The notes beneath the pieces were generated by a model. It was given only the letters and a program-made list of their open reading frames with translations. It was not told the origin of the DNA and did no database searches. The position numbers and the translations under genes were made by a program. DNA of 64,000 bases, taken from assembly GCA_016185015.1 (NCBI GenBank), contig JACPOI010000005.1, forward strand, positions 1 through 64,000, written 5' to 3'. Shown piece after piece: positions 26,404-30,067 of the stretch. Positions within the stretch are counted from its first letter, which is position 1; each line of letters begins with the position of its first letter. Source of the DNA: Burkholderiales bacterium. Lineage in GTDB: Bacteria > Pseudomonadota > Gammaproteobacteria > Burkholderiales > Burkholderiaceae_C.

Positions 26404-27342
26404 TCAGAGTAGACCGACCAGCCACATCACCAGCGGCAAGGTCAGCAGCGCCACCGCGTTGGAAACGATGACACTGGCCGTCACCAGCTCTTCCGCCACG
26501 GCGTAACGCTGCGAGAACAGGAAGACGTTGGCCCCCATGGGCAGCGCAGCCGTCACGATCATGACCACCAGGGGCAGGCCCGACAGGCCCATGAGCAGGC
26601 CCAGGCCCGCCACCAGGGCCGGCATCAACAGGTTCTTCACCAGCGTGAGGCTCAGCGCACCACGCAGATGCGGGCCCACAGTGGTACCCGCCAGCGTCAC
26701 GCCCACCAGCAGCAGGGCCAGCGGACCAAACGCATTGCCCAGCCACTGCAGGGGCCGGTCCACCACCTCGGGGATGGCCCAGCCGGTCTGCGCGAACAGC
26801 AGGCCGGCAATGATGGGCAGGGGCACCGGATGGATCACGGCATTGCGCACGGCACTCAGCACCGTGCGCCACATGGCACGGGGTTCGGCCACGGCGGCCT
26901 CACGCGCCACCGCCAGTTCCAGGATCACGGTGCCGGCGGTCAGCAGCACCACGGCGTGCAGGGACAGCAGTGCCAGCAGCACCACCAGACCCGCCTCGCC
27001 GTAGGCCAGGCCGATGAAGGCAATGCCGATCATCACCGTGTTGCTGAAGGTGGAAGCCAGGGCCAGCACGGCGGCACGCCGGTTGAGCCCTTGCCACAGC
27101 AGGTTCAGACCGAAGAGTATGAACACCGCCACAAAGTAGGTGGCCAGCGGCAACAGCTCCAGCTGCTTCACATCCACCTTGCCCATGGTGCGGAACATCA
27201 GCGCCGGCGTCAGGACCAGAAAAACGAGGTTGGAAAGGTCCTTGACCGAGTCAGCGCGCATCCAGCGCAGGCGACCGGCAACATAACCCAGGGCCACCAG
27301 CAGGACGACGGGGATCAGGGCGGAGAAGACTGGGTGATTCAT
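26404..27342 (-). CDS. AEC family transporter (auxin efflux carrier-like)
   Basis: MNHPVFSALIPVVLLVALGYVAGRLRWMRADSVKDLSNLVFLVLTPALMFRTM. Confidence 0.85.
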   Translation of the reverse strand: MNHPVFSALIPVVLLVALGYVAGRLRWMRADSVKDLSNLVFLVLTPALMFRTMGKVDVKQLELLPLATYFVAVFILFGLNLLWQGLNRRAAVLALASTFSNTVMIGIAFIGLAYGEAGLVVLLALLSLHAVVLLTAGTVILELAVAREAAVAEPRAMWRTVLSAVRNAVIHPVPLPIIAGLLFAQTGWAIPEVVDRPLQWLGNAFGPLALLLVGVTLAGTTVGPHLRGALSLTLVKNLLMPALVAGLGLLMGLSGLPLVVMIVTAALPMGANVFLFSQRYAVAEELVTASVIVSNAVALLTLPLVMWLVGLL

Positions 27343-27391: not shown

Positions 27392-27919
27392 CGTGGCAAG
27401 CCGGGTCTCGCCCCGGCGGGCGACTCACTTTCTCTTGCTTCGCCAAGAGAAAGTAAGCAAAGAGAAGGCGAGCCGGGTGCGTCGTCCCTGCGCTGCGCTA
27501 CGGGCACGCTGCGTTGCTCGGCCAGTGCGGGAAGTGCAGAAACTCGCTGCGCTCAAACATCTGCACTTCTTTTTCCGCCCTGGCCTGCGCTACTCGCCTC
27601 CGCACACGGCAATGGGAAGCCGAATACCAAACGCAAAGACAACAAGGACGCGCCATGGCGCGTCCTTGTGGGGTTAGGATGTTGGGTCTCTGGCTGTTCG
27701 GTCCCTCATGCCGTGTGGCAGGGCTGAGCAGCGCAGCAGCGGGCGGATCAGGGCGGGCGTTGTTTGAGCGCAGCGAGTTCAGCCCGACCCCGCACGATGC
27801 GAGCAGCGCAAGGAACCGCGCAGCGGCCCTGACTTCGGCTCGCCTTTCTTTTGGGTACTTTTCTTTGGCGAAGCAAAGAAAAGTACCTCGCCCGCCGGGG
27901 CGAGACCCGGCTTGCCACG
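27392..27919. repeat. ~528 bp giant imperfect palindrome built of concentric inverted repeats
   Basis: Perfect 32 bp IR 27392-27423/27888-27919; IR GGCTCGCCTT-type 27459-27474/27837-27852; perfect 19 bp IR 27541-27559/27761-27779; IR CACACGGCA/TGCCGTGTG 27603-27611/27709-27717; central 28 bp perfect palindrome 27642-27669. Midpoints all fall at 27655-27660. Confidence 0.85.
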
Positions 27920-27980: not shown

Positions 27981-29996
27981 TCAGAAGCTCAACTGCAACC
28001 CCACCTTCAAACTCCGCCCCGGCAAGGGCACCCTCCCCGGTGCCGTCTGCGTCAAGATCGACGACGACGAATACGCCAGCGTGTTGCCGATGTTGTCCAC
28101 CCGCGCATACCAGAGCGCCGGCAATCCACTCACCTTGTCGCGCAAACTCAGCGCTGCATTCCACAGCGTGTAGCCCTCGGTGGCGAGCTGCCCGTCGGGC
28201 ACGCGGTCCTGCCCCGCATACCGGTCCACCCCCAGGCGCGCCCCCCAGGCCGCGCGGCTCCACACCAGCGTGGCACCCACGCGGTGCGGCGCGATGCGCG
28301 GCAGGGGCTGGCCGGTGCTGGTGTTCTCGGCCCGCACGGTGTCGGCACGCAGGGTCAGGTCCAGCTTGTGCTGTGCGTCCAGCACGCGCACGTTGCCGCT
28401 GGCCTCGGCACCGATGAAACGCGCCTGCACCTGGGTGTAGGTGTACTGCGGCGGCGAGGTCGTGAGGTCGGTCCCTTCGAGCGAAATGTAGTTGCTGAAC
28501 TGGTGCTGGAACAACTGCAGCTGCGCACGGTGGGCCCCGCGTTTCCAGGCGGCCCCCAGGTCGAAGTTGGTCGAGCGTTCCTTGCCCAGTTCCGGATTGC
28601 CGATCTCCTCGGCCTTGGTCGCCACATGCTCGCCGTTGGCGTAGAGCTCGTAGTGCTTGGGGGCGCGCTCGTTCCACGACAGGTTGGACGTGAGCTGCCA
28701 CTCCGGGGCCACGCTCCACAGCGCCCCCAGGGCATAACTGCCCGGGTTGAAGCTACGCGTTGCCGGCGTAAAACGCGCCACACCGGGCGTGCCGAAGGAC
28801 TCGACCTGCACCGCCTCCAACCGCGCCCCGGCACTGAGCTTGCCCCAGGTCGTGGCCAGCTCCTCGTGCGTGAAGACCGCGCTGCTGCGCGTGCGGCTGT
28901 AGGGTGCGTAGGCTTCCGTGCCGTCGGCCGAGAACTCGCTGTCATCGAACTGCAGGCCGAGCACACCGTCCAGCGCACCCAGGCGGGCATGGCGGGCCTG
29001 CAGGCGCAGGTCGTTGCCCTGGGTCTTGAAAAGCGTGCCGGGCACGCCGGCGTTGAACTCGGTGTGCTGGTAGTCGTTGCGGCTGAACTGGGCCTTGAGG
29101 CTTTGCAGCCACCCGCCCAGTTCGCGCAGCTCGCCTTCCAGCGCGAGGCGGCTGGAGCGCATGCGGATGTCCACCTCGTCTTCTGCCACCGAACCGTAGC
29201 GGGTGTCGTATGTGGAGAGCGAGGCGCCCAGGTAACCGCGATCGAAAAACAGCGTGCCCCCCAGCGCTCCGCCGCTGCTCTCGCTGGCCGAGTTGCAGAT
29301 GCGGCGCGCCGTGCTCGTGACGCCGCCGCGCGTGCAGGACAGATCGATGGGCACGGCCACGTCCTCGGTCTTGCGCGACATGGCGTCGACGTGCAGGGTG
29401 TAGCGTTCGTTGCCGCCGTCCAGCAGCACGGTGCCGCCCCGCTCCTGGTTGCCGGTGGCGAAACCGGCGTCGAGCTTGCCGGCCACGCCACCCTTCGCGT
29501 CGAACAGCGGCTCACGGTGGATGCGCCCGTCGATCACATTGACCACGCCGCCCACGGCACTGCCGCCGTACTGCAGCACGCCTGGGCCACGCAGCACTTC
29601 GACCCGTTCGATCAGCAGCGGATCCAGCGTCACCGCGTGGTCGTAGCTCAGGCTGGACAGGTCCTCGCTGGCCCCGCCGTTGTTGAGGATACGGATGCGG
29701 TCGCCGTCCAGGCCGCGGATCACGGGCCGGCTCGCGTTGGGGCCGAAGTAGGTGCTGCTCACTCCGGGCAGGCCGTTAAGGGTCTCGCCCAGGGTGGGCT
29801 GGCTGCGCAACAGCAGCTCGGTGCCCGAGAGCTGTTCGGTCGGAGCGATCAGCTCGGTGGCACCCAGCGGGTTGCCGGTCACCACCACGGGCGCCAGCGT
29901 GGCGTTTTCATGGGCCCAGGCACTGCAGGCCAGGAGCGTCAGCGTCGCCAGCGTGCTGCGGCGGAAAAAATCAAGGGTCTTGTGTTTGTATTTCAT
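27981..29996 (-). CDS. TonB-dependent outer membrane receptor, ZnuD-like
   Basis: PVVVTGNPLGATELIAPTEQLSG...SRPVIRGLDGDRIRILNNGGASEDLSSLSYDHAVTLDPLLIERVEVLRGPGVLQYGGSAVGGVVNVID. Confidence 0.85.
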   Translation of the reverse strand: MKYKHKTLDFFRRSTLATLTLLACSAWAHENATLAPVVVTGNPLGATELIAPTEQLSGTELLLRSQPTLGETLNGLPGVSSTYFGPNASRPVIRGLDGDRIRILNNGGASEDLSSLSYDHAVTLDPLLIERVEVLRGPGVLQYGGSAVGGVVNVIDGRIHREPLFDAKGGVAGKLDAGFATGNQERGGTVLLDGGNERYTLHVDAMSRKTEDVAVPIDLSCTRGGVTSTARRICNSASESSGGALGGTLFFDRGYLGASLSTYDTRYGSVAEDEVDIRMRSSRLALEGELRELGGWLQSLKAQFSRNDYQHTEFNAGVPGTLFKTQGNDLRLQARHARLGALDGVLGLQFDDSEFSADGTEAYAPYSRTRSSAVFTHEELATTWGKLSAGARLEAVQVESFGTPGVARFTPATRSFNPGSYALGALWSVAPEWQLTSNLSWNERAPKHYELYANGEHVATKAEEIGNPELGKERSTNFDLGAAWKRGAHRAQLQLFQHQFSNYISLEGTDLTTSPPQYTYTQVQARFIGAEASGNVRVLDAQHKLDLTLRADTVRAENTSTGQPLPRIAPHRVGATLVWSRAAWGARLGVDRYAGQDRVPDGQLATEGYTLWNAALSLRDKVSGLPALWYARVDNIGNTLAYSSSSILTQTAPGRVPLPGRSLKVGLQLSF

Positions 29997-30067
29997 CGTC
30001 GTCTCGTTGCATCCAACAGAAAACACCGCGCAGCCCCAGGGCGACGCGGCGGATCAGCTACGGAGAT

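Follow-up and report, generated by a model that had tools for sequence, protein, structure and literature searches.

What kind of element fills the space between two genes with a palindrome of 528 bp? The question is raised by positions 27392-27919 of a 64,000-nucleotide stretch of DNA from a Burkholderiales bacterium (the window, by which the whole stretch is meant). From the start of an AEC transporter gene (27342) to the stop of a TonB receptor gene (27981), the gap is filled by the palindrome alone. An earlier note, made from the sequence, described it as two units of about 260 nt placed head to head and raised the possibility of a partner transposase acting on the ends. Our analysis suggests that the palindrome probably belongs, as a copy without a load, to a dispersed family of hairpin-armed, terminator-insulated gene slots, whose contents are exchanged at fixed sites.

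Structure of the window copy

Re-examination of the sequence confirmed that the outer inverted repeat is a perfect 32 bp (27392-27423 / 27888-27919) and that the 28 bp central palindrome (27642-27669) is likewise perfect. The inner inverted repeats comprise a 19-nt AACTCGCTGCGCTCAAACA inverted pair and local hairpins at 27427-27454 and 27857-27884. When extended, the outer arms of this copy reach 91 nt with 82% complementarity. The predicted capability of the 528 bp element to form a giant hairpin holds as well: it folds at -201.5 kcal/mol as DNA (z -18.9), the RNA fold of the 528 nt gives -345.9 (z -19.9), and none of 100 shuffles is as stable. The parts of the element and its neighbours, the latter named after the earlier note, are as follows.

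26404-27342, minus strand: AEC family transporter gene, outside the element, its start codon 49 bp away
27392-27423, plus strand: left outer end, H0 module, a perfect inverted repeat of 27888-27919
27427-27454, plus strand: left end hairpin H1, ACTTTCTCTTGCTTCGCCAAGAGAAAGT; in other genomes, IS30-family insertions lie just inside its inner foot
27508-27597, plus strand: left long hairpin H2, with covarying stem (coordinates from the arm alignment)
27541-27559: AACTCGC..GCTCAAACA motif at the tip of the left H2 (from the arm alignment)
27642-27669, no strand: central palindrome P, ACAAGGACGCGCCATGGCGCGTCCTTGT, terminator-like on the minus strand
27724-27812, minus strand: right long hairpin H2, with the TGTTTGAGCGCAGCGAGTT motif at 27761-27779 (coordinates from the arm alignment)
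27857-27884, minus strand: right end hairpin H1, in a sequence version unlike the left H1
27888-27919, minus strand: right outer end, H0 module, a perfect inverted repeat of the left end
27981-30026, minus strand: TonB-dependent receptor gene, outside the element, in the same direction as the AEC gene

P is terminator-like in the direction of both neighbouring genes (minus strand), and a second terminator-like site on that strand is located at the right end, at 27906-27885. The description as two head-to-head units captures the giant inverted palindrome and its real paired arms, but the halves of the element are not duplicates of a single unit, and the description misses the role of container, which is empty here and holds a small gene elsewhere. 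Compared with its own reverse complement, the element matches at 70%. Open reading frames of 110-219 aa across the element were treated as translations of the repeat.

A dispersed repeat family

The repeat occurs in about 15 places of its own genome, a draft of 66 contigs, which excludes that the arms are unique; several of these copies are located at contig ends, and the true copy number may therefore exceed 15. Matches are present in 18 of 25 congeneric genomes, and in 12 of 36 genera over all 61 genomes searched. The same TonB receptor / AEC transporter site is occupied also in Curvibacter sp. PAE-UM, and the presence of the same element at the same site of an independent genome rules out misassembly. 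At this site the element is absent from G023 and from G018, where a 44-bp gap is found, while G005 retains just a hairpin of about 30 bp built from the two outermost ends.

The impression that such repeats are familiar from other proteobacteria proved correct, as the end-hairpin sequence is found across Beta- and Gammaproteobacteria. Searched for as a degenerate pattern in the species genomes, H1 yielded at least 119 stretches; the matches listed include Variovorax, Polaromonas, Acidovorax, Dechloromonas, Azonexus, Silvimonas, Thiobacillus, Gallionellaceae, Methylobacter, Rheinheimera, Aggregatibacter and others. The block CCAAAGAAAAGGCGACCC that follows H1 is almost invariant, and Pasteurella multocida carries an AT-rich version of the entire palindrome. 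In Variovorax paradoxus VAI-C (L381:1978-2450), a short gene annotated as HigB and a regulator gene directly adjoin a palindrome copy. Phage records searched for the hairpin sequence gave no match. At the gathering score, Rfam had no match in 12 related loci, and its matches in the window were all sub-threshold. No description of the family was found in open-licence papers; an earlier one may exist elsewhere, but the family is apparently undescribed.

When flanks of some 60 elements were mapped onto 1.2 Mb of G018, many sites turned out to be common to the genus, and some also to a second genus (G028). For two elements of G000 (L004 and L005, on contigs C64 and C31), the two flanks of each map to different G018 sites, which may reflect recombination between copies or a join in the draft assembly. 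Where Curvibacter PAE-UM has a hairpin-armed element, G018 has at one site (L277, C1 at about 2514480-2514745) a different inverted-repeat element, with GGGCCTGTTCACACTCATTTCTCAAG ends.

Mosaic arms with covarying hairpins

Alignment of the copies from the own genome revealed that versions of the end module (H0 and H1) combine differently on either side, i.e. the arms are mosaics. From copy to copy the end modules vary independently, a single element may carry different modules at its two ends, and terminal repeats in copies other than that of the window are imperfect or mixed. Orientation is strongly biased: among the matches listed, arm neighbours within 4 kb are convergent in 34 cases, divergent in two and point the same way in two.

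When 68 distinct arms of this genus and of G028 were aligned, the consensus fold consisted of H1 and a long H2, with the tip motif AACTCGC..GCTCAAACA well conserved. Both sides have changed in 22 of 39 pairs (7-11 in slid controls), and the covariation score is 0.412, compared with 0.138 after shuffling and 0.06-0.09 after sliding. As many as 95.7% of cells are paired (80% shuffled, 41-49% slid) and 423 cells are changed on both sides (14-52 in slid controls), where cells come from related sequences, hence are not independent events, and the structure is derived from the same alignment. Pairs altered on a single side are rare. G-U pairs account for just 109 of the 2640 cells, 65 of them in a single pair, which points to pairing at the level of DNA, or to template-switch correction, and not to RNA structure. 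Three closely related Ralstonia strains show joint changes on the two sides of an arm hairpin, with flanks almost identical.

Genes carried between the arms

Many convergent arm pairs in the genus enclose approximately 0.5-1.7 kb coding for one or two small proteins. The space between arms is occupied either by a lone terminator-like palindrome, as in the window copy, or by one to two small genes; most copies are empty. Loads recognised by Pfam and PADLOC include a GIY-YIG nuclease (PD-T4-3-like), MORN repeats, an M74 peptidase, DUF6998, DUF4826, an AlbA_2/HATPase protein, an Mrr endonuclease and a nucleotidyltransferase, and most carried proteins match nothing in Pfam or PADLOC. One interval of 2.7 kb with ordinary-looking genes (L096) may not be a single load. 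Apparent monomers were dismissed as a separate type, since several of them consist of the 3' arm, P and a load, the 5' arm being lost or diverged.

All-against-all comparison, supported by the mapping of flanks, demonstrated that orthologous sites hold different genes or an empty palindrome. At a site between FAD-oxidase-like and TctC-like genes (names given by eye), proteins of 125 and 184 aa are encoded in Curvibacter PAE-UM, 280 and 161 aa in G018 and G010, and 175 aa in Hylemonella, while G016 has an empty palindrome. Content varies similarly at two further orthologous sites. Homology at the FAD-oxidase-like / TctC-like site spans the 5' arm and leader and breaks off right at the carried start codon or shortly before it. 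It restarts just past the stop codon, where there is a strong palindrome that has a T-rich tail. A palindrome related to P follows the stop codon of the carried gene in loaded relatives. The leaders contain sigma-70-like motifs (by eye), and in several loads the leader includes a short, conserved reading frame that spans about 16 codons and has the end CACGTTAG or similar.

Traces of integrons

In the integron of Curvibacter PAE-UM, the stretch at the attI position is homologous to the leader (blastn E 8.5e-5; profile E 8.3e-6). A covariance model built from 18 attC sites of integrons of the family found a strong attC match directly 3' of the load in Polaromonas L218 (E = 8e-9). Two weaker matches, judged by position, lie directly 3' of both genes of L083 (E 0.11 and 0.81). 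On a 240 kb control the model gave nothing above 11.6 bits. Some loads are thus integron cassettes. The involvement of integrons is partial, as the same model finds no attC in most arm-bounded loads and most attI-like leaders are solitary, outside arms, several of them followed by attC. The latter also rules out arms as obligatory attI platforms. No integrase gene was found beside cassettes; of 26 congeneric genomes, 2 have one that scores above the cut-off, located elsewhere. The solitary units of attI-like leader and cassette, which have neither integrase nor arms (L365-L377, e.g. G018:C1:2196456, 2460814, 2760315) and several of which bear attC, are dispersed integron platforms.

Movement of the element and transposases at its ends

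The megaplasmid of Ralstonia RRA.1 carries about ten copies, and three related strains have one full copy each. At four of the RRA.1 sites, some within gene clusters such as hmgA-fahA, the gap in RS647 is shorter and the element absent. Target-site duplication was seen neither at the window site nor at these four sites, where flanks and gaps have diverged; in Ralstonia, the element-free gaps are too diverged for a duplication to be read. No exchange event was caught between close strains.

Neither the partner transposase envisaged at the outset nor another mobilising enzyme was found for the copies examined. The 1.1-kb genes beside copies, considered as candidates for an autonomous partner, are IS30-family insertions into the hairpin, the only transposons seen at the ends of these copies. 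There are six such insertions at the inner foot of H1, five in Curvibacter PAE-UM (L073-L077) and one in Polaromonas glacialis (L170), with a 3-bp duplication (AAG or CAC) wherever both junctions were read. As a target for IS elements, the inner foot of H1 is highly specific. One Y1_Tnp (RAYT-like) gene is present in each of the four genomes tested (L401-L404), with neither arms nor H1 (up to 6 substitutions) within 1.5 kb on either side. This RAYT-like gene adjoins a conserved glutamate-synthase-like gene in four species.

Alternative explanations

Could the element be a classical composite non-autonomous transposon? Its arms would be miniature inverted-repeat elements. Single arms, arm pairs and the enclosed DNA would be moved by a transposase provided in trans, as in TIME-COMP or integron mobilization units. 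This agrees with the inverted repeats at the termini, the convergent arms that enclose genes, the existence of single-arm copies, the unequal copy numbers of Ralstonia strains, and presence or absence at orthologous sites. We nevertheless hold it to be unlikely: sites are largely common across the genus, end modules differ between both ends of one element, target duplication is not seen at sites with diverged flanks, and no transposase gene with these ends was found beside the copies examined. Spread by the resident RAYT in the manner of REP and BIME, the genes between arms being incidental, is quite improbable, since the Y1_Tnp genes lack arms and H1 in their surroundings, the length of the arms far exceeds that of REPs (21-65 bases, PMC1525189) and loads are precisely bounded; the presence of one Y1_Tnp gene in all four genomes tested and the mosaic combination of hairpin modules are what speaks for it.

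Two further explanations dispense with mobility or function. A bidirectional transcription terminator or regulatory RNA element without mobility would suit the terminator-like sites at P and the right end, the intergenic position and the paired structure. The loads of small genes, presence or absence between species, and the scarcity of G-U pairs, unlike typical RNA covariation, make it highly improbable. Passive palindromes, whose covariation would stem solely from template-switch correction of quasi-palindromes, would explain the co-changed hairpin sides in close Ralstonia strains and the rarity of one-sided changes, but hardly the orientation bias, the precise load boundaries or the end-module sequence kept across Beta- and Gammaproteobacteria, and this reading seems to us extremely improbable.

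Proposed mechanism

We therefore return to the exchangeable gene slot. A full element consists of two convergent arms, each composed of an end module (H0, H1) and a long hairpin, H2, whose pairing has been maintained in evolution. The slot between them, with terminator-like P, is empty or carries one or two small genes; what it carries changes over time, while its chromosomal place stays. P may end the transcript of the carried gene and shield the neighbours; some Ralstonia copies sit between seemingly co-transcribed genes, which fits poorly with strong termination. Genes might be exchanged mainly when similar arms recombine, for example following the uptake of DNA; some cassettes would be supplied by integron integrase, and the arms themselves could spread through some activity acting on hairpins. 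A bolder and rather doubtful version is that of an integrase-less gene-capture platform: H1 and H2 at fixed intergenic sites would be recognised as folded single strands by a trans-acting recombinase, which would load and unload small genes ready for expression, integron cassettes and defence-like genes among them.

Relation to known systems

Minimal mobile elements of Neisseria hold different genes at the same site in different strains, and NIMEs form mosaic intergenic repeats. The gene slots differ from both in that the variable gene is flanked on each side by the hairpin repeat itself. TIME-COMP and the integron mobilization unit (IMU) are based on Tn3-derived miniature elements with target-site duplications of 5-6 bp (PMC13367494). 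There too, two inverted copies of a short non-coding element bound genes, including integron fragments without integrase, and terminal inverted repeats, a perfect 32 bp in the window copy, are a further likeness to TIME-COMP and MITEs. In contrast, no Tn3-type ends stood out in the hairpin-armed element, 5-bp duplications were not seen next to its diverged flanks, and its arms are covarying hairpin mosaics at conserved chromosomal sites, mostly empty. CALINs and integron gene cassettes (PMC8618304) are resembled by the attC-bearing small genes far from integrase in some loads and by the attI-like leader, whereas the slots are bounded by hairpin arms, most loads lack attC, and slots without integron traces are common. 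With REP/BIME and RAYT (PMC1525189, PMC2817692) the family shares multi-copy extragenic palindromes, mosaic combinations and their use as IS insertion targets, but its arms measure 200-270 nt with two to three hairpins each, a gene slot is added, and the resident RAYT gene is not flanked by hairpin arms. TIME-COMP/IMU, CALIN and REP mosaics are the nearest in design, and the features tested set the family apart from all three.

Conclusions

A repeat family distributed across Beta- and Gammaproteobacteria marks places where small, mostly unknown genes are exchanged. Mobile orphan genes, some of them nuclease- or restriction-like, could be catalogued by searching for H1 hairpins that converge, and the slots offer a way to study how cassettes get out of integrons. 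For a DNA repeat, the Watson-Crick covariation is unusually clean and provides a test case for distinguishing selection on hairpins from template-switch correction.
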